Assembly: GCF_023516435.1 (NCBI RefSeq)
Contig: NZ_CP097332.1
Location: 2,790,001-2,854,000 of the forward strand
DNA from: Jatrophihabitans telluris
Lineage (GTDB): Bacteria; Actinomycetota; Actinomycetes; Mycobacteriales; Jatrophihabitantaceae
Direction of reading: 5' to 3'
DNA length: 64,000 nucleotides
Every line of letters begins with the position of its first letter. Positions within the stretch are counted from its first letter, which is position 1. The translations under genes were made by a program, and so were the position numbers. The notes under the pieces were generated by a model. The model had not been told where the DNA came from. It worked only from the letters and a program-made list of their open reading frames with translations, and searched no databases. Below are positions 8,036-64,000 of this stretch, piece by piece.

Positions 8036-9631
8036 GTGGTGAACACCGGGCAACGAGCGAGCACCGGCAGCGCTCCCCGCACCCTGGCCACGGTCGAACG
8101 ATGGGTCGACTGGGACCTGCGCCGGATCGCCGCCGCCGGGCTGACGGCGACCCTGCTGATCGCGATCGGCAGCTACGGTGCGGGCTCGCTGCCGGCCAAC
8201 GACCCGACCCGCCATATCCCGGTCATCGGGTTGCTTCGCCACGGCTGGCTGGGGTTGCACGCCTCGCTGAGTGCCTACTACCTCGGTCTGGCGCTGCTGA
8301 CCGCGACGTGGCTGATCCTCGGCCGGGTGTTGCTGACCGGCTCCGCCCATGGGACCCTGCCGGTCACCGAGGACCACCTTCTGCACGCCGACGCCGGCAC
8401 CGCCGGGGGTCTCCCGGCCGCGGCCGACGGCTCGGTGATCGACCCACGGCGACTGCGCACCGTCCTCATCCGCTGGATGCTGCCGTTGCTGGTGGCGATG
8501 CCGTTGGCCAGCCAGGACCTCTACTCCTACGCGGCGCAGGCACGTCTGGCCGAGGCCGGGTACGACCCGTACAAGTTCACGCCGGCCGATCTGCCCGGCA
8601 AGTTCCTCGACAACGTCGCGTGGAAGTGGCTCGACACGCCCTCCCCCTACGGGCCGCTCTGGGTGACGGTCTCCCGCTGGACGGCCACCATCACCGGCGA
8701 CCACGCCCTGATCACCGCTATGGTGCTGCGGCTGATTCCCTTCGCCGCCATCCTGGGCATGGCCTGGCTGATCCCTGGGATGGCCCGCCACCTGGGCCAT
8801 CGCGGCGATCTGGCCCTGTGGCTGGCGATCGCGAACCCGCTCGTGCTCGTGCACGGGGTGGGCGGTGGCCACAACGACGCGGTGATGGTGTTCCTGCTCG
8901 TGGCCGGTCTGGCCGTCGTGTTGCGAGAAGGCGCCGGCTGGCGAGCACTGGCCGGCGCCGCCGCTCTGATGGCGCTGTCCGCGGCGGTCAAGGCGCCAGG
9001 AGCGATCGGTGTGGCCTTCGTCGTCCCGGTCTTCATGGCCGGCCGCGCGGAGCTGCGCGTCCGGGACTGGTTGCGGGCCTGCCTGATCGCTGCGGCGGTC
9101 GCCGTCCCGGTGTTCTCGCTGATCACGTGGATGGTCGGCTACGGAAACGGCTGGATCAAACAGGTCTCCCCGACCATTCCGGTGATCAGCCTGATGTCGA
9201 TCCCCACCGTCCTGGGCGTGCTCTACAACCTCGCCACCGGCCAGCCCCACGCCGGCACCTTGGTCGACCACACCGTTCGGGCGTTTCGTCGCGTCGGCAC
9301 CGTCGTCAACGCCCTCGTCCTGACCTACCTCTGGTTCCGGGCCGTACGCGGGTCGGCTTTGCAGCTGTTCGCACTGGCTCTGGTCTCGGTGGTGTTGCTC
9401 AGCCCCGCCGTCCAGCCGTGGTACTTCACGTGGGCGCTGGCCCCGGCAGCGCTCTTCCTGTCCCAACCGCGCGGGATCTTCTGGGTGGCCTTCGTGTCGG
9501 TGGCGTTGACGTTCCTCGTCCAGCCGATGGGCTCGGGTGTCGGCCTGACCGCCTACGTTCCGACCGTCCTCGTCGGCGCCTTCGCGGCCCGGTCGTTGCT
9601 CGGCCCGGTCGTGCAGCGCGTTCGGACCTAG
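8036..9631 (+). CDS. mptA: MptA/MptB-family polyprenol-phosphomannose mannosyltransferase
   Basis: A 531-residue polytopic GT-C glycosyltransferase with about a dozen membrane segments. Recognisable family blocks are ASQDLYSYAAQ in an extracytoplasmic loop (Asp near the first loop, as in GT-C enzymes), DTPSPYGPLW and the GVGGGHNDAVMVFLLVAG segment. These enzymes extend the alpha-1,6-mannan core of lipomannan from polyprenol-phosphomannose at the outer face of the membrane. The neighbour order (polyprenyl synthase, this gene, Rv2175c-like, pknL) points to MptA rather than MptB. The start is GTG 8036 or GTG 8039. A related family is annotated as carotenoid-associated, so the role is inferred. 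Confidence 0.8.
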   Translation: MVNTGQRASTGSAPRTLATVERWVDWDLRRIAAAGLTATLLIAIGSYGAGSLPANDPTRHIPVIGLLRHGWLGLHASLSAYYLGLALLTATWLILGRVLLTGSAHGTLPVTEDHLLHADAGTAGGLPAAADGSVIDPRRLRTVLIRWMLPLLVAMPLASQDLYSYAAQARLAEAGYDPYKFTPADLPGKFLDNVAWKWLDTPSPYGPLWVTVSRWTATITGDHALITAMVLRLIPFAAILGMAWLIPGMARHLGHRGDLALWLAIANPLVLVHGVGGGHNDAVMVFLLVAGLAVVLREGAGWRALAGAAALMALSAAVKAPGAIGVAFVVPVFMAGRAELRVRDWLRACLIAAAVAVPVFSLITWMVGYGNGWIKQVSPTIPVISLMSIPTVLGVLYNLATGQPHAGTLVDHTVRAFRRVGTVVNALVLTYLWFRAVRGSALQLFALALVSVVLLSPAVQPWYFTWALAPAALFLSQPRGIFWVAFVSVALTFLVQPMGSGVGLTAYVPTVLVGAFAARSLLGPVVQRVRT

Positions 9632-9654
9632 GTTCGGTCGGCCACCACCGGCGG

Positions 9655-9975
9655 TCAGCGGCCACGACGTGGCGACCCGCCGTTGCGCCGGCGGCCGAGC
9701 GCCACCCAGCAGGCGAGGGTGAGCAGGATCAGGGCGAATCCGAAGCCGATGTCCTCCACCGGGGCGTAGGCGATCCGCAGCCCGAGGATGTCCGCGGCGG
9801 AGTAGCGCACGACCGGGATCCCGGTGAGCACGCCGTTGACGAGCAGCTGGAACACCAGGCAGATCCCGTAGCTGAACCAGAACGCGCGCCGACGCACCAG
9901 CGCCGTTCGCAGCACGGCCAGGTCGACGGTCACGGCCCCGGCCAGGGCCAGGACGACCAGCACGGTGTAGCTCAT
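9655..9975 (-). CDS. crtYd: Lycopene cyclase subunit (CrtYd-type)
   Basis: A 106-residue membrane protein with three predicted helices and the motif YAPVEDIGFGF near the third helix, the conserved PxE(E/D) signature of heterodimeric lycopene cyclases. Its start overlaps the stop of the upstream subunit by four bases (ATGA), so the two are translated together. The pair cyclises lycopene ends, giving beta-, gamma- or epsilon-type C40 or C50 carotenoids; the sequence does not settle which. Confidence 0.88.
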   Translation of the reverse strand: MSYTVLVVLALAGAVTVDLAVLRTALVRRRAFWFSYGICLVFQLLVNGVLTGIPVVRYSAADILGLRIAYAPVEDIGFGFALILLTLACWVALGRRRNGGSPRRGR

Positions 9976-10346
9976 CTGCGGGTCATCCCGTCGCTGCCGT
10001 TGCTGCTGTTGTCAGCCGAGGGCTCGTCGCCGATCAACCAGTCCGGTCGACGCCGGCGCACGGCTTCCAGCGTCAGTACCGCGCACAGGGGAATGACGGC
10101 GAAGAACAGGATCTCCTCGACGGGCAGGCCCGCCAGCCGAAGTCCGATGAGGTAGCCATCCGCGAAGGACCAGTGACCGGCGTGCACGGCGTAGAGGTCC
10201 CACGCGGTGCCGAGCAGCAGCCCGGGAAGCAGAGCGAGGAGCAAGCGTCTCGGTCGGGAGTAGACCTGAGTGCGCAGGAGGATCTCCAGCGGAGCCGTCC
10301 CGACCAGACAGGCCGCCAACAACCCGAGGTAGGTCAGATGCCGCAC
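9972..10346 (-). CDS. crtYc: Lycopene cyclase subunit (CrtYc-type)
   Basis: A 124-residue membrane protein with the signature LAGLPVEEILFFAVIPLC, the partner of the downstream crtYd. Three membrane helices are visible. The start is taken as GTG 10346 (VRHLTYLGLL), after a GGCGGGGGCGG stretch. A longer reading from 10415 would overlap the upstream gene and add a polar N-terminus not seen in the family. No phytoene synthase or desaturase lies in the window, so the rest of the carotenoid pathway must be elsewhere. Confidence 0.85.
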   Translation of the reverse strand: MRHLTYLGLLAACLVGTAPLEILLRTQVYSRPRRLLLALLPGLLLGTAWDLYAVHAGHWSFADGYLIGLRLAGLPVEEILFFAVIPLCAVLTLEAVRRRRPDWLIGDEPSADNSSNGSDGMTRR

Positions 10347-32757: not shown

Positions 32758-33846
32758 TCAGCCGATACGGACCGCGCCGGAGTAATCGCTCATGTAGGCC
32801 AACGAACTGATCTTCACGACGTCGCCCGTGGTCGGGGCGTGGACCATCATGCCGTTACCGATGTACATGCCGACGTGGTAGGCGGGCGAACCGAAGAAGA
32901 CGAGGTCTCCGGGCTGGAGGTTGTTCTGGGCGACCGGAGTCCCCATGCCCTGTTGCTCGGCGGACTGGTGCGGCAGGCTGACGCCGGCCTGGCCCCATGC
33001 CCACATGGTCAGCCCCGAGCAGTCGTAGCTGTCAGGTCCGCCGGCACCCCAAACGTAGGGCTTGCCGCGCTGGGACAGCGCCGCCCGAACCGCGGTGAGG
33101 GCCGCGCTGGAGGCGCTGCCGGAAACGGCCACAGCGGCAGGCGCCCTGGCCACACCCGTCGCGGTCACGCTGGTCACGCTGGTCACGGCGGCGAGCTGAG
33201 TCCGACTCGGGGCTGCCCTGGCGGCCAGCTTGGCGCGCTCGGCGGCCGTGAGCGTGGCCAGCAACTGCTTCTGCTTGGCGATCTCGGATTCGAGCGTCGT
33301 GCGCCGGGCGAGCAGGGTCTGACTCTGCTTCTGCGCAGCCTGTACGGCGGCGTCAGCAGCGGCCTGTGCGGACTTCGCGGCCTCGGTGGCCTTCACCGCA
33401 GCGGTGGCGACATCCTTCTGGTGGTCGGCGAGGAAGCTCAGCGACTGCATCTTGTCGAGGTAGGCCTGGCCGGACGCGCTGTCCATCAGGGCAGCGGTGC
33501 GACTGAAGCTGCCACCCTTGTACTGAGCGGCAAGCGACGTGGCCAGTGCCTGACGGTCCTTGGCGACCTCGGCCTGCGCGAGGGCGAGGGATTTCGCGGC
33601 GGCATCTGACTGCTTCTGGGCGTTGGTCAGATCGATCCGTGCCTGGTTGAACTGTTCGGTGAGCTTGCCGTTGTCCTTGGCCAGCTTGTCCAGAACGCTC
33701 AGGACGTCGGCGGAAGTCTTGGGCTGGGCAGGCGTCTGCAGCGTCGGTATCGCACCCGCTGTCAGCGGGCCGGCCAGAAGCGCTCCGGTAAGGACGACAG
33801 CACCCAGGATCACGCGGCTGAGCCGCGACTTTCGAGTCAACGCCAC
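32758..33846 (-). CDS. Secreted NlpC/P60 peptidoglycan endopeptidase
   Basis: A 362-residue exported hydrolase, Rv2190c-like. Signal peptide (residues 10-32), a long coiled coil (45-210), a short linker, and an NlpC/P60 domain from 247 with catalytic Cys276 (DCSGL), His324 (HVGMYIG) and His336. It cleaves gamma-D-Glu-mDAP bonds; the coiled coil probably restrains it. A ydaO/c-di-AMP riboswitch precedes it, as often for actinobacterial wall hydrolases, tying wall remodelling to osmotic signalling. GTG 33846 is used. Confidence 0.93.
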   Translation of the reverse strand: MALTRKSRLSRVILGAVVLTGALLAGPLTAGAIPTLQTPAQPKTSADVLSVLDKLAKDNGKLTEQFNQARIDLTNAQKQSDAAAKSLALAQAEVAKDRQALATSLAAQYKGGSFSRTAALMDSASGQAYLDKMQSLSFLADHQKDVATAAVKATEAAKSAQAAADAAVQAAQKQSQTLLARRTTLESEIAKQKQLLATLTAAERAKLAARAAPSRTQLAAVTSVTSVTATGVARAPAAVAVSGSASSAALTAVRAALSQRGKPYVWGAGGPDSYDCSGLTMWAWGQAGVSLPHQSAEQQGMGTPVAQNNLQPGDLVFFGSPAYHVGMYIGNGMMVHAPTTGDVVKISSLAYMSDYSGAVRIG

Positions 33847-33870
33847 AGTTGGCGGTGCTCCTCTTCCACT

Positions 33871-34036
33871 CGACCGCCTACCGAGTTAGCTGTCGGGTTC
33901 GGGCTTGGAAGATGCCCTACAAAACATCGCGGGAGGCGGGCCGTTGGACGAGCCAATGGCCATGCTTTAACGATGTTCCGATTCACCCCAGGAACCTGGG
34001 TCCCCGGCTCGACTGACCTGGCGCCTGATCGCTGCA
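33871..34036 (-). promoter_or_regulatory. ydaO/yuaA-type c-di-AMP riboswitch
   Basis: On the minus strand, upstream of the NlpC/P60 gene, conserved blocks appear in order: GGGGACCCAGG, CCTGGGGTGAATCGG and, near the 3' end, CGAACCCGACAGCTAACTCG followed by GTAGGCG. These are the P1/P2-flanking consensus segments of the ydaO class that binds c-di-AMP and, in actinobacteria, turns off cell-wall hydrolase genes. Boundaries are approximate, since I aligned by eye. The remaining 137 bases upstream (34037-34173) should hold the promoter. Confidence 0.85.
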
Positions 34037-58491: not shown

Positions 58492-58614
58492 CGCAACCCG
58501 TCCCCTCTCATCGGAACCAGTGTCGGGGTCGACGACCGGAACGTGCTCGGCAGGTGATCTCCTGCACCGTAGATGCCGTGATGGGCCGGAGCGAATTGAC
58601 CCCTCCGCGGCTGT

Positions 58615-58735
58615 GTGTTCCCATGGTGCCGCACACGCCGAACGAGCGGGGGAAGCCGGTGAGAGCCCGGCACTGACCCGCAGCCGTGAGCCGACGGACA
58701 TCTGGACGCCGGTGAGTCGGAATGCCCGTTCATCC
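58615..58735 (+). promoter_or_regulatory. Cobalamin (AdoCbl) riboswitch
   Basis: Conserved blocks appear in the right order: GGTGCC at 58625, GGGGGAAGCCGGTGAGAGCC with CGGCACTGACCCGC (58650-58682) covering the B12-box/core, GCAGCCGTGAG, and GAGTCGGAATGCCC (58716-58729). This is the standard J6/3-B12-box arrangement. About 120 bases of expression platform lie between it and the ATG at 58855. It should switch off the following operon when intracellular cobalamin is high. Boundaries are by eye. Confidence 0.88.
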
Positions 58736-58854
58736 GGCGCGTCTCCACAACACCGTCGAGGATCGCGGTTCGGAGTCGCTGAGTGTCCCGGGTCTCAGGC
58801 TCGTGGACGTCCCGGCGAAATCGGGCGGACCTCCGTTCCTCCAGAAGGACGCCG

Positions 58855-60465
58855 ATGACCCGCCTCACCCGTTCGCTGCGTCGCACCGGCACCGTCGCGC
58901 TGGCCGTCACCGTTGCCGGCGTGCTCGCGCTAGGCAGCGCGGCCGGACCTGCCTCAGCCGCGACCTCGCCCGCCCTGACCGGCGACGCTGCCCAGGCCGC
59001 GGCGAGTTGGCTGGCCGGACAGCTGGTCGACTCGAGCGGAAAGCCCGCCACCACCGGGGACCACTTCGACTACCCGGGCGGAACGTACTTCTTCGACGGA
59101 CTCACCGCGGACTCGGTGTTCGCGCTGGCCGCCGCGGGAGTCGGCACGGCCAAGATCGCGAAGGTCCTCGACTACTACGAGGCGAACATCGCCCTGGCCA
59201 GCAGCGTCAACGACACCTCGGGCGCACCGGGACCCTACGACGGCTCCGTCGCCAAAGCTGCCCTTGCCGCGATCGTGGCCGGCCGCGACCCGTCGCACTT
59301 CGGTGGCTACAACCTGCTTCAGGCTCTGGCCGACGACAGCTGCACGGCCGTGTCCGCACCGGCGAACAGCCAGGACTTCACCACCCCGACCTGCCCGGCG
59401 ATCGGCGCCGGACGCAACATCTTCTCCAGCGTCTCCCAGTCCCTGATCGTGATCGCGCTCGAGCGCGGCGAAAAGCCGGTGACCCCGGCGCAGTCGTCCT
59501 ACCTGCTGTCCCTGCAGTGCGCGGGCGGCGGCTTCACCTCCGAGACCACCGCGGCCGGCTGCACCCCCGACATCGACGCCACGTCCTACGCCATCCTCGC
59601 GCTGAAGGCTTTGGGCGGCCACGCCGCGGCCCTGGCGTCGGCCAAGTCCTGGCTGATCTCCCAACGCACCGCCGGCGGGTACTGGACCGCTCAGGGCGGG
59701 CCGAACACCGACTCCACCGGGCTGGCGGTCTCAGCCCTTGACGCCCTCGGCGTGGACGTCGACGCCTCGCGGACCTGGCTCTACTCACAGCAGGTCGTCG
59801 AGGGCCCGACCTTCGGCGCCAACGCATCCCGCAGTGCCCTGACCTACCTGGGTGCGTTCAACGCGTTCGACTCCCTCAAGGCCACCGCAGACGGCATCGT
59901 CGGGATGGTTCCCGGGGCGTCCCTGCTGAGCGTCACGACGGCCGGCGCGCTGGCGGGGCTGCCGGTTCTGCCACCGGACGTCGACCGTCAGCACGCCTCG
60001 GTGAAGCAGGGTGGCAGGCAGGGCGTGGCCGCGACCGGCTTCACGGCGGGCGAGAAGGTCGTCGCCACCCTCCACTCCACCACCGTCGCCCTCGGCTCGG
60101 CGAAGGCCAAAGCGAACGGAACGGTGGAGGTCGACTTCACGGTTCCGAAGACGGTGCCCACCGGCACGCACGCCGTGGTGCTCGTCGGTGCGACATCCGG
60201 CCTGGTCGCCAAGATCTCCTTCGTGGTGACCAAGGCAGCGGCCACTCCGGCCCCAAGCGGTTCGGGTTCGGGTTCGGGTTCGGGTTCGGGTTCGGGTTCG
60301 GCCGGCGGAAGCACGGGCGGGTCCAGCACCACCAGTGGGTCCGGCGCCGCACTGGCGGCAACCGGCCTGGACCGCGGCCGGCTGTCCGGTGCGAGCGAGC
60401 TCGCGCTGGCCCTGCTGATGGCCGGCGTCGGCCTCGTCATGCTGGGACGGCGACACGCGGCATGA
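58855..60465 (+). CDS. Sortase-anchored alpha/alpha-toroid protein (transcobalamin alpha-domain-like)
   Basis: A 536-residue exported protein. Signal peptide (1-36, PASAA); residues 40-350 are repeated inner/outer helices of the terpene-cyclase/transcobalamin toroid type (AAASWLAGQLVDSSG, DSTGLAVSALDALGV); 365-460 is an Ig-like beta domain; a Ser-Gly linker (about 468-482) and LAATG (500-504), hydrophobic stretch and RRHAA form a class E-type sortase signal. The toroid in human intrinsic factor holds B12 with a second domain; here that domain is the next gene. Riboswitch control points to cobalamin binding. AGAAGGA seven bases before ATG 58855. Confidence 0.85.
   Translation: MTRLTRSLRRTGTVALAVTVAGVLALGSAAGPASAATSPALTGDAAQAAASWLAGQLVDSSGKPATTGDHFDYPGGTYFFDGLTADSVFALAAAGVGTAKIAKVLDYYEANIALASSVNDTSGAPGPYDGSVAKAALAAIVAGRDPSHFGGYNLLQALADDSCTAVSAPANSQDFTTPTCPAIGAGRNIFSSVSQSLIVIALERGEKPVTPAQSSYLLSLQCAGGGFTSETTAAGCTPDIDATSYAILALKALGGHAAALASAKSWLISQRTAGGYWTAQGGPNTDSTGLAVSALDALGVDVDASRTWLYSQQVVEGPTFGANASRSALTYLGAFNAFDSLKATADGIVGMVPGASLLSVTTAGALAGLPVLPPDVDRQHASVKQGGRQGVAATGFTAGEKVVATLHSTTVALGSAKAKANGTVEVDFTVPKTVPTGTHAVVLVGATSGLVAKISFVVTKAAATPAPSGSGSGSGSGSGSGSAGGSTGGSSTTSGSGAALAATGLDRGRLSGASELALALLMAGVGLVMLGRRHAA
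60259..60300 (+). repeat. (GGTTCG)7 hexanucleotide repeat in coding sequence
   Basis: Seven perfect copies encode the Ser-Gly linker. Slippage in units of six keeps the frame and would change the spacer between wall anchor and binding domain. Confidence 0.95.
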
Positions 60466-61388
60466 CCGGCGTCCCCGCTGGGCGCGTCCGGCGACCAGCC
60501 CCGCGGCTACTGGCCGTTACCGCGGCCGCGGCTCTTGCGGTCCCGGCCGGCGCAGCATTGCCCGCCGTTGCCCTGACCCCGGCCTCGGCCTCGCCCTCCC
60601 ACGTCGCCGTGGTCATCGGCGGCCAGTACGCGCGCTGCGTCGCCTGGCGTTCGGGCATGACGGGGCTCGACGTGCTCGAAGCCGCCGCTACCGTCCGCTT
60701 CGGCCAGCGTCAGTACAGCGGGCTGGTCACGTGGATCAACAGCGTGGGTTCGGATCGCCCGACCACGTCCTCCTACTGGGCCTACTTCCACAACGGGAGC
60801 TACGCCGGCTCCGGACCCGCCACCTATCACCCGCAGCCCGGCACGGTCGAGGGCTGGGCGTACGGCAACGGGAAGACCGCGCCGTCCGCTAGCTACGCAA
60901 CCGTGTGCGCGGGCGCGGACACCGCGGCCAAACCCGCTCCAACAGTGGCGCCGAAACCAGTCCCGAAGCCGGCTCCCACGCTGTCGCCGAAACCGGTTCC
61001 CTCAGGCCAGGCAGCGGCCCAGCGCCCGACACAGGCCACCGGCGTCGCCGCGGCGCCCGCGTCCGGCTCGGCGAGCAACCGTGCGAACCCGGCGAGCGGC
61101 GGACAACCTTCCTCATCGAGCGGCTCCCCAGGTGCCCCGTTCGGGACCCACCCGCCCTCCGGCTCAGCCACCGCAGCAGGTACCCAGGTGACCGGCAGCG
61201 CGCTGACGTCCCCAGCGGGAGCCGTCACCGCCGAGTCCACGACGACCCCGGGCACGACGGGCGTGGCGAGCACAACCGTCGGGAAGAAGACCGGATCCTC
61301 GACCGCGACCGGCGCAGCGATCGCACTGCTGGCTGTACTCGCCCTCGGCGGCGGCGCCTGGTGGCATCGTCGCCGCCGCGTGCTCTAG
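60462..61388 (+). CDS. Exported DUF4430 (transcobalamin-like C-terminal domain) protein
   Basis: A 308-residue protein. Signal peptide (basic residues, then LLAVTAAAALAVPAGAALPAV); a DUF4430 domain (45-150) with MTGLDVLEAA, VTWINSVG, SSYWAYFHNGSYAGSGPA and VEGWAYGNG; a Pro/Ala/Lys and Ser/Gly stalk; a C-terminal helix (GAAIALLAVLALGGGAWW) ending HRRRRVL. DUF4430 is the beta-domain of transcobalamin/intrinsic factor. It overlaps the toroid gene by 4 bases (ATGA). No LAXTG motif is seen, so it stays in the membrane. Confidence 0.86.
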   Translation: MTGVPAGRVRRPAPRLLAVTAAAALAVPAGAALPAVALTPASASPSHVAVVIGGQYARCVAWRSGMTGLDVLEAAATVRFGQRQYSGLVTWINSVGSDRPTTSSYWAYFHNGSYAGSGPATYHPQPGTVEGWAYGNGKTAPSASYATVCAGADTAAKPAPTVAPKPVPKPAPTLSPKPVPSGQAAAQRPTQATGVAAAPASGSASNRANPASGGQPSSSSGSPGAPFGTHPPSGSATAAGTQVTGSALTSPAGAVTAESTTTPGTTGVASTTVGKKTGSSTATGAAIALLAVLALGGGAWWHRRRRVL

Positions 61389-61407
61389 GTCCGGCCGGCG
61401 AAGGTTC

Positions 61408-62487
61408 GTGTCCCGTCCCCGACTCATTCATCCCGTCGCCTGGTGGCTGTGGGCGCTCGGTCTGGCGTGGGCGACCATGCAGACGAGCAACATCCCGCTG
61501 TTGCTGGTGATTGCCGCGGTGTGCGGGTTCGTCGTCAGTGCCCGGCGCGCCCGCACGGTGTGGGGTAACGCCTTCGGCCTGCTCCTGGTCTTCGGCGCCG
61601 TCGGCATCGTCGTGACCGTGCTGCTGCAGGTGCTCATCGGCACCCGTACCCCGGGCCATGTGGTGCTCACCCTTCCGCAGTGGGACCTACCGGCGTGGAC
61701 GGACGGACTCTCGGTGGGCGGCCCGGTCACCGGCGAGGCTTTGCTCGACTCGGCGACGAAAGGGCTTCGCCTGGCCGTGTTGATGGCCTGCTTCGGGGCA
61801 GCGAACTCTCTGGCCCATCCCGGTCGCCTGTTGGTGCTCGTTCCAGCGGCCTTGTACGAACTCGGAGTCGCCGTCGTCGTGGCGCTGACGCTGATTCCGC
61901 AGCTGACCGCCGCCTTGGCCCGAGTCCGCGATGCGCAGCGGCTGCGTGGCCGGCGCACCACCGGCCTGCGAGCCATCCGCGGCATCGGGGTGCCGGTGCT
62001 CGAAGAGGCCCTGGAAGGATCGATCGCCCTGGCCGCATCGATGGATTCCCGCGGGTACGGTCGTTCGGCCGCCCTGCCCGCGCGCGTGCGCCGACTCACC
62101 CACCTCGTGCTGCTGCTCGGCCTCGGAGCGGCCCTGGTCGGCAGCTACTTCGTCGTCGACCCGAGCGCCGCGCATGGCTGGGGGGTGCTGGGACTCGCCG
62201 TCGGCAGCGGCCTGGCCGTAGTGGCCGGCCTGTACTCCGGCCGCAGGCTGCGGCGGACCCGCTACCGGCATGACCCCTGGGGTGGGCCCGAGTGGCTGAT
62301 TCTGGTCAGCGTGGCCGTCCCGCTCGCCTGCTTCGCGCTGGCCGACGCCAACCCCGGAGCGTCCGGCGTGCTGCGCTGGCCCTCGCTTCCCCTCGTCCCC
62401 TTTCTCGGACTCCTCCTTGCTGCGCTGCCCGGCCTCACCGGTGGTCCGACAACGCAGAATCCCCTTTCCGAGGCGGGGACGTCATGA
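61408..62487 (+). CDS. ecfT: ECF transporter T component (CbiQ/EcfT)
   Basis: A 359-residue membrane protein with six or more helices and both EcfT coupling motifs: ALARVRDAQRLRGRR and ASMDSRGYGRS (Ala-Arg-Gly types) that grip the ATPases. The C-terminal helices exceed the CbiQ minimum (about 240 residues). GTG 61408. Its stop overlaps the ATPase start by 4 bases. Vitamin specificity comes from an S component, not present in the window. Confidence 0.9.
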   Translation: MSRPRLIHPVAWWLWALGLAWATMQTSNIPLLLVIAAVCGFVVSARRARTVWGNAFGLLLVFGAVGIVVTVLLQVLIGTRTPGHVVLTLPQWDLPAWTDGLSVGGPVTGEALLDSATKGLRLAVLMACFGAANSLAHPGRLLVLVPAALYELGVAVVVALTLIPQLTAALARVRDAQRLRGRRTTGLRAIRGIGVPVLEEALEGSIALAASMDSRGYGRSAALPARVRRLTHLVLLLGLGAALVGSYFVVDPSAAHGWGVLGLAVGSGLAVVAGLYSGRRLRRTRYRHDPWGGPEWLILVSVAVPLACFALADANPGASGVLRWPSLPLVPFLGLLLAALPGLTGGPTTQNPLSEAGTS

Positions 62488-64000
62488 TCGAGCTGGTTTC
62501 CGCGGGAGTGCGGTACACGCCGACTTCCGAACCGGTTTTCCACGACCTCACGCTGTCCATCGCCGAGGGCGAACTGTGCCTGGTCGTCGGGCCGACGGGA
62601 TCGGGCAAGTCCAGCCTGCTCGGGACGGTGAACGGGCTCGTCCCCCACTTCACCGGCGGGGTGCTGTCGGGGACCGTACGGGTCGCCGGACGGGACACTC
62701 GAACCCACCCACCGCGGGAACTGGCCGATGTGGTCGGGGTCGTCGGCCAGAATCCCCGGGCCGGCTTCGTCACCGACGTCGTGGAGGACGAGCTGGCCTA
62801 CACGATGGAGTCGCTGGCCATTCCCCGCGACGTGATGCGACGCCGCATCGAGGACGTGCTCGATCTGCTTTCGCTGGCCGAGCTGCGCGACCGGCCGCTG
62901 TCCACGTTGTCCGGAGGGCAGGCTCAGCGAGTCGCCATCGGTTCGGTGATGACCGCCCATCCGCGGGTGCTGGTGCTGGACGAACCCACCTCCGCTCTGG
63001 ACCCCGCCTCAGCCGAGGAGGTCCTGGCCGTCATTCAGCGCCTCGTGCACGACAACGGCCTGACCGTCCTGATGGCTGAGCACCGGCTCGAACGCGTCGT
63101 CCATTACGCTGACTCGGTCGTGGTCATGCCCGGCGGCGGCCGGCCGATCGAGTACGGCGATCCGGCGGCGATGATGCGGTTGTCGCCGGTGTTCCCGGCG
63201 GTCGTCGAACTGGGTCGCGATCTGGAGTGGGACCCGCTCCCGCTGACGGTCCGCGACGCGCGCCGCCGCTCCGCCGGACTGCACCGGACTCTGGCCACCG
63301 CCGCCGTGCCGCCGGATTCCGCCCGACCAGGTCGGGTGCTGGCCCGGGTCAGCGGGGCAACGGTGCGCTATCCCGAGACGGTCGCGGTCGACGGTCTGGA
63401 CCTCGAACTGCGCGGGGGTGAGATCACCGCCCTGATGGGACGCAACGGCGCCGGCAAGTCCAGCCTGCTCAATCTGCTGACCGGCCTGCGCAAGCCGACC
63501 AGCGGTACCGTCCGCCTGGGCGCCGGCGTCGACCCACGGAGTCTGCGCGGCCGAGCGCTCATCTGCGCGGTCGGCCTCGTCCCGCAGCAGCCCGCGGACC
63601 TGCTCTACGCCGACTCCGTCGCCGAGGAATGCGCCCTGGCCGACCGGGAAGCGGGCGGCGCCGTCGGACGCTGCGCTGGGCTGCTCCTGCGGATCGCCGG
63701 ACCCATCGACCCGGACCGCCATCCCCGGGACCTGTCCGAGGGCCAGCGCCTGGCCCTGGCGCTGGCCGTCGTCATGACCTCCGAACCGGACCTGCTGCTG
63801 CTCGACGAGCCGACCCGAGGGCTCGACTACCCCGCCAAGAAAAGGCTGATCGTGCTGCTGCGTGAGCTGGCCGGTCCCGAGCGGTCCATCGTCCTGGCCA
63901 CCCATGACGTCGAACTGGCGGCCGAGTTGTCCGACCGGACCGTGGTGATGGCTGACGGTCAGATCGTCGCCGACGGGCCCAGCCGTGAGGTGGTTGTCTC
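62484..64000 (+). CDS. ecfA: ECF transporter fused tandem ATPase (EcfA-EcfA'), 3' end outside
   Basis: At least 505 codons, running off the right edge. The first half has Walker A GPTGSGKSS, signature LSGGQAQRVA, Walker B VLVLDEPTSALD. The second has GRNGAGKSS, a degenerate signature LSEGQRLAL, and LLLLDEPTRGLD. The two halves power one ECF transporter as a built-in heterodimer. It belongs to the riboswitch-led operon; the S component gene probably follows. Confidence 0.92.
   Translation, partial: MIELVSAGVRYTPTSEPVFHDLTLSIAEGELCLVVGPTGSGKSSLLGTVNGLVPHFTGGVLSGTVRVAGRDTRTHPPRELADVVGVVGQNPRAGFVTDVVEDELAYTMESLAIPRDVMRRRIEDVLDLLSLAELRDRPLSTLSGGQAQRVAIGSVMTAHPRVLVLDEPTSALDPASAEEVLAVIQRLVHDNGLTVLMAEHRLERVVHYADSVVVMPGGGRPIEYGDPAAMMRLSPVFPAVVELGRDLEWDPLPLTVRDARRRSAGLHRTLATAAVPPDSARPGRVLARVSGATVRYPETVAVDGLDLELRGGEITALMGRNGAGKSSLLNLLTGLRKPTSGTVRLGAGVDPRSLRGRALICAVGLVPQQPADLLYADSVAEECALADREAGGAVGRCAGLLLRIAGPIDPDRHPRDLSEGQRLALALAVVMTSEPDLLLLDEPTRGLDYPAKKRLIVLLRELAGPERSIVLATHDVELAAELSDRTVVMADGQIVADGPSREVVV

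Follow-up and report, generated by a model that had tools for sequence, protein, structure and literature searches.

Does the 3' end of this stretch of DNA encode a bacterial form of the animal vitamin B12 carriers, divided between two surface proteins and set beside an importer? The window, that is the whole stretch of 64,000 nucleotides that was analysed, closes in an operon with the following features, given in window coordinates:

58595-58748, + strand: cobalamin riboswitch aptamer RF00174 (covariance-model match over the gathering score)
58855-60465, + strand: exported alpha/alpha-toroid protein, SCO2321-like, 536 amino acids from the ATG at 58855 (LAATG sorting-type C-terminal signal; family matches)
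60462-61388, + strand: exported DUF4430 protein (transcobalamin-type beta-grasp) with a C-terminal hydrophobic anchor (PF14478 over cut-off)
61408-62487, + strand: EcfT-like membrane protein (CbiQ family, weak match; position conserved across loci)
62484-64112, + strand, ending 112 bases past the window: fused EcfA-EcfA' ATPase (two ABC stretches)
64109-64972 (8110-8973 of locus L003), just outside the window: ECF S component (PF12822)
65000-66019 (9001-10020 of locus L003), outside the window and next after the S gene: CobT-like gene

The cobalamin riboswitch that the original prediction placed at the head of a four-gene operon is borne out by an RF00174 match of 37.6 bits (gathering score 31.5), with an E-value of 5.9e-6 when the window was searched and of 6.4e-8 for the same element in a 701-base search. 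The element starts 20 bases upstream of position 58615, from which the operon had earlier been counted, and the start codon of the toroid gene lies 106 bases past its 3' end. The toroid and DUF4430 genes overlap by 4 bases, as do the EcfA and S genes, and the CobT-like gene follows the S gene after 27 bases. At least two RF00174 matches are present in the window's genome (150 of 345 first-look candidates scored); the other lies just 5' of genes for the large and small subunits of a ribonucleotide reductase, which we take to be the class I, B12-independent enzyme, the type shut off by such riboswitches in Streptomyces.

The predicted ECF machine is likewise present, as EcfT and a fused ATPase, and the S-component gene, for which the prediction had pointed past position 64,000, directly adjoins it (PF12822, 34.6 bits, cut-off 30.7). 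A group I ECF gene set is thus complete, with EcfT, EcfA/EcfA' and the S component encoded together, the match of EcfT to CbiQ being below the Pfam cut-off (21.5 bits, cut-off 25, E 2.1e-4). Compared with known structures for a relation to CbrT, the profile of the S family (A4) found nothing among PDB sequences up to an E-value of 10.

In a sample of 296 genomes from the class the S component was matched in 159; a phylum-wide sample of the same size gave 107, many of the matches there being weak. For gene order, 76 S loci from 72 of the 159 S-bearing genomes were hand-picked for family spread and contig extent; with four toroid loci from the window's own family and the window locus itself this gave 81 loci, which were mapped with home-made profiles, and 76 remained once five cut by contig ends had been dropped. 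The toroid and DUF4430 genes both stand ahead of the transporter genes in 54 of the 76 loci, and a same-strand RF00174 match lies at the operon's 5' end in 69 (35 over the gathering score and 34 below it, E up to 1e-3 per genome), counts of riboswitches being lower bounds since at most 50 candidates were scored per relative in the genome-wide searches. The co-occurrence of toroid, DUF4430, ECF genes and B12 riboswitch, which the original prediction suggested surveying, recurs across these loci. Eighteen loci have DUF4430 ahead without a toroid (L073 and L076 among them have one elsewhere in the vicinity), and four have neither. When the window and the four loci chosen for their toroid are set aside, the remaining 71 comprise 49 with both, 18 with DUF4430 only and four with neither, 64 of them with a riboswitch. 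No riboswitch over threshold was found at seven of the 76 loci (L070, L071, L072, L099, L117, L124 and L126), and a direct RF00174 search of five of these returned only a weak match, at L099 (21.5 bits).

Among the best 80 named loci, out of at least 571 relatives, the order toroid-DUF4430-EcfT-EcfA-S, with or without CobT, occurs in 49, DUF4430 precedes the toroid in three, DUF4430 stands ahead with no same-strand toroid ahead in 16 (two with a toroid downstream), and neither is present in 12, several of them cut by contig ends. The names in this best 80 include Streptomyces, Kribbella, Amycolatopsis, Micromonospora, Janibacter and Nocardioides, together with Nanopelagicales or acidimicrobial MAGs, and judged by these relatives the window's genome would itself be of the Actinomycetota. 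Because the riboswitch and the gene order recur in other genomes, the arrangement is more than chance.

Two genomes separate the parts. In G103 and G226 the ECF-S operons (loci L103 and L123) are riboswitch-led and have no toroid or DUF4430 genes, and at a separate site a toroid-DUF4430 pair follows another B12-clan riboswitch (RF01689, 43.4 bits, and RF01482, 52.7 bits, both over cut-off). Given these separate riboswitches, the transporter and the surface pair are each independently linked to B12.

What, then, is imported? The window's genome encodes four B12-binding domains over cut-off, and searches of it matched neither CbiC (control positive in 7 of 14 genomes) nor CobS (control positive in 10 of 14). 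On this gene content it looks like a cobamide user obliged to import the finished molecule, and because the B12-binding domains are present and CbiC and CobS are unmatched, import of whole cobamides fits best. That the operon serves cobamide import is in our view very likely. Alternatively, the transporter could carry a lower-ligand precursor (alpha-ribazole or dimethylbenzimidazole) or another B12 precursor. The CobT-like gene, found beside the S gene here and matched in 34 of the 76 loci, hints at lower-ligand chemistry, and one known S component has such a role: CblT is an ECF S component. The available part of PMC8123684 presents it as an alpha-ribazole transporter. Carrier-like surface proteins, however, suit a large ligand rather than such a precursor. 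CobS is the enzyme that attaches the lower ligand to the corrinoid, and it was not found in ten of 17 examined genomes, all with this S component; the ten include the window's genome and the six examined from the small-genome family f28. Its absence from the ten argues against import of a lower-ligand precursor alone, and we regard this alternative as improbable. A cobalt transporter under B12 control would agree with the CbiQ-like EcfT and with what is available of PMC3766115 and PMC7689651, in which cobalt uptake too is governed by B12 riboswitches. Among Pfam families, however, the S component matches PF12822 and none of those for cobalt S components, and with no CbiC match in the genome there is probably no corrin ring to be filled with cobalt, making this alternative very improbable.

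The surface proteins were predicted to be counterparts of the alpha and beta domains in intrinsic factor and transcobalamin. As a single sequence, the toroid protein matched no Pfam family, scored 66.3 bits against NF053823, far under the cut-off of 300, and against PDB sequences gave only low-complexity or chance matches, as did the S component. The alignment A1 comprises 53 of the 60 toroid domains, without two weak toroid-like hits, two fusions and three more. With E up to 0.01 as the limit, 38 of its members match SQHop_cyclase_C and 33 match the Prenyltrans toroid; PF01122, also a toroid family, is matched by two of the 53 (best E 1.1e-3) and not by the window's protein. The family profile has squalene-hopene cyclases as its best PDB sequence matches (6.8e-39), with no B12 carrier among the 54 PDB sequences matched. 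These matches, and the drimenyl diphosphate synthases and squalene-hopene cyclases in the top VIA-align ranks of two modelled fusions (L056 and L159, below), could mean that the toroid is an exported enzyme, a terpene cyclase or glycosidase, that lies here by chance. The DxDD motif of cyclases has a catalytic role, however, and it is missing at the aligned site in all 53 members, three of which have the same letters elsewhere. The conserved B12-riboswitch operon and the fusions to DUF4430 also speak against a chance placement, and an exported enzyme is to us hardly credible.

The DUF4430 protein matches PF14478 with 25.8 and 28.2 bits (cut-off 23.8), one of only two such matches at E up to 0.01 among the 66 aligned members (alignment A2, 66 of 82 DUF4430 domains, 16 left out). 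Neither the protein nor its family profile matched any PDB sequence.

As predicted, the alpha and beta halves are separate polypeptides in the window. In some relatives they form a single chain: L159 and L145 have a toroid followed by DUF4430, and L056, L081 and L144 have DUF4430 followed by two toroids, although the two fusions from MAGs could be assembly or base-call errors. L159 has the domain order of the animal carriers, and its halves are 27% and 29% identical to the window's toroid and DUF4430 proteins. Its model, ligand-free and from an unpaired alignment, has a pLDDT of 90.7 and a pTM of 0.79, and in a Foldseek search of the PDB ranks 1 to 15 are all transcobalamin, haptocorrin or intrinsic factor (E 9.1e-10 to 1.9e-7), in alignments of 466-496 columns that cover both domains. 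The model of this relative thus matches the two-domain carrier fold. The linker is short, the last toroid helix ending at 333 and the first beta strand starting at 349; at the level of secondary structure, the beta part runs through strands 349-355 and 363-369, a helix at 375-381 and strands 386-391 and 394-400, and the L056 model has the same order of strands and helix. Foldseek found transcobalamin only at rank 50 for the reversed-order L056 model. VIA-align placed intrinsic factor at rank 46 for L056 and no B12 carrier among the best 50 rows for L159, toroids filling them. The natural single-chain fusions and the Foldseek ranks 1 to 15 of one of them support likening the toroid to the alpha domain, and the DUF4430 protein to the beta domain, of transcobalamin and intrinsic factor.

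Do the two proteins close on the vitamin together? The alternative is that they act separately, the toroid as a wall scavenger or store and the DUF4430 protein as a membrane-side docking protein for the S component, with no single clasp. The 18 of 76 operons that have DUF4430 without a toroid ahead fit separate action and count against an obligate two-part clamp. Moreover, 17 of 19 examined genomes whose S gene has no toroid neighbour gave no toroid match at all, so that in these the DUF4430 protein or the S component must work unaided by one. The tails of the two proteins differ, and the modelled L159 fusion lies outside the closed pose of the carriers, superposing poorly on the B12-bound ones (18.6-21 A rmsd over both domains).

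Set against separate action are the adjacent, overlapping genes, the five natural fusions, one of them (L159) with a short linker, and the pair's moving together in two genomes. The distances between sequences point the same way. Over 46 loci (ten were left out by name and others for want of one of the five proteins), the toroid distances track those of DUF4430 more closely than the transporter accounts for, with a partial r of 0.42 that none of 2000 permutations reached, permutation correcting partly for the non-independence of pairwise distances. This is the highest partial distance correlation among the pairs with a surface protein, the pairs being conditioned on differing sets. For a joint toroid-DUF4430 clasp we find the case evenly balanced. 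The more specific proposal, that the two chains make up a B12 clasp anchored at the surface, in effect a split intrinsic factor passing the vitamin straight to the ECF S component, we put forward tentatively and hold to be somewhat doubtful; purely separate action appears rather unlikely.

The prediction that the toroid protein is sortase-anchored fits the terminal signals of the window's protein and does not extend to the whole family. Class E sortases recognise LAXTG, and the toroid ends in LAATG, a hydrophobic stretch and RRHAA; with five sortase matches over cut-off in the genome, it has the features of a sortase substrate, an LAXTG-type motif, a hydrophobic stretch and a basic tail. Among the ends of 122 toroid open reading frames, 33 combine L[PA]xTG with a hydrophobic stretch, 34 have the hydrophobic stretch alone, 52 have neither by the rule applied and three run off the contig; judged by these signals, wall anchoring is predicted to be common, and not general, among toroid proteins. 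At its C-terminus the DUF4430 protein has a hydrophobic stretch and a basic tail, and no LPXTG-like motif was seen there; the LPXTG_anchor model matches it weakly (16.8 bits, cut-off 15.9, E 0.008).

Combining these data, we consider it probable that this is a B12-repressed operon for the import of complete cobamides, in which the surface pair binds cobalamin and the S component, EcfT and EcfA-A' import it. From the riboswitch class, scarcity of the cofactor would permit expression of the operon. The toroid, with its wall-sorting signal, and the membrane-anchored DUF4430 protein would then most likely bind cobalamin at the cell surface. Core binding would fall to the DUF4430 protein, and the toroid would be an optional lid or catcher, serving to raise affinity or range. 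The vitamin would be handed to the adjoining S component and moved in by EcfT and EcfA-A'.

The original prediction also knew of no experimental description of the arrangement. Among the titles and abstract openings listed in searches of open-licence papers, none reported an experimental test of a toroid-DUF4430-ECF arrangement. The prediction overstated the novelty, given that PMC1796856 and PMC5301498, in the parts available, already contained predictions. Burroughs et al. 2007 (PMC1796856) predicted that toroid and beta-grasp proteins in CbiO/CbiQ operons are B12 scavengers and that different such surface proteins may form complexes. The clade outlined in the available text of PMC1796856 resembles the present one in its secreted transcobalamin-clade beta-grasp proteins, some with sorting signals and often fused to toroids, in operons with a CbiO-like ATPase and a CbiQ-like permease, and in hosts that usually lack key B12 synthesis genes; here too CbiO/CbiQ-like genes lie in the operon and CbiC and CobS are unmatched in the host genome. 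For that clade the available text names low-GC Gram-positives, planctomycetes and some euryarchaea, and toroid-SLBB fusions, whereas the present proteins, from Actinomycetota, are mostly encoded by separate genes. They are accompanied here by a dedicated S component and by a cobalamin riboswitch, both of which go unmentioned in that text.

The animal transcobalamin, haptocorrin and intrinsic factor share with this operon the combination of a toroid and a DUF4430-type beta domain. They are one chain, whereas here there are two polypeptides with different tails, and single chains are seen only in relatives such as L159; the animal carriers use endocytosis, whereas here an ECF importer adjoins. 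CbrT/CbrTUV was reportedly treated by Rodionov in 2009. DUF4430 sits at the C-terminus of TCN proteins, according to the available part of PMC4350170. ECF-CbrT (PMC5997447) is likewise an ECF B12 importer with its own S component, but it uses a shared ECF module and the available text mentions no surface binders, in contrast to the two surface-protein genes found here. The ECF genes of acI actinobacteria lie behind cobalamin riboswitches and were proposed to form a cobalamin importer (PMC5301498); surface proteins are not mentioned for that module in the accessible text, whereas here they are part of the operon. What this analysis adds is (i) the conservation in Actinomycetota of a split operon that has an S component and a riboswitch of its own, and (ii) a surface pair under an independent riboswitch, genomes from which the toroid is absent, and carrier-order fusions with a fold match.

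The operon points to a widespread cobalamin importer. To our knowledge, ECF importers work without a separate binding protein; if the split clasp is true, they would gain a dedicated extracellular one, and Actinomycetota would hold both two-gene and single-chain forms of the B12 architecture of animals. The proposal that transcobalamin and intrinsic factor are of bacterial origin also becomes directly testable, since the two halves are found in nature as separate proteins and, joined in carrier order, as single chains.

The toroid family alignment (A1) reveals a pair of cysteines, at residues 192 and 206 of the window fragment of the toroid, that is conserved in 52 of its 53 domains, and we suggest from this sequence pattern that the two residues possibly form a disulphide.

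The genome of J. telluris also has the following features:

L004:5650-5885 (own-genome contig C1:2499649-2499884), plus strand: other cobalamin riboswitch match, 90.5 bits
L003:9001-10020 (own chromosome, beyond the window end): CobT-like gene, 258.8 bits, under the NCBIfam cobT cut-off of 319.3
Window 33860-34033, minus strand: c-di-AMP riboswitch, 72.3 bits

The cobalamin riboswitch match is directly followed by the genes for the large and small subunits of ribonucleotide reductase. CobS, the lower-ligand joining enzyme, was sought and gave no match in this genome, which carries the CobT-like gene. The frame after the c-di-AMP riboswitch (32758-33846) resembles, as judged by eye, an NlpC/P60 wall hydrolase, and this arrangement looks ordinary.

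At least nine RF00174 matches occur in the compared genome G286 (2.3 Mb; loci L136 and L137). DUF4430 is present there in several copies, of which one is preceded by a riboswitch and lies apart from the EcfT-EcfA-S locus of that genome. Close relatives of the S component are held by MAGs labelled Acidobacteria and Chloroflexi (L152 and L218), reflecting either transfer or misbinning.

Fused forms were also observed. In a toroid-DUF4430 fusion (L145:2764-5223), the toroid's LAFTG sorting-type signal and a hydrophobic stretch are internal, N-terminal to the DUF4430 domain. EcfT, EcfA and the S component lie within a single open frame of 1196 aa (L117:3971-7558, minus strand), which is apparently a single-chain ECF importer.
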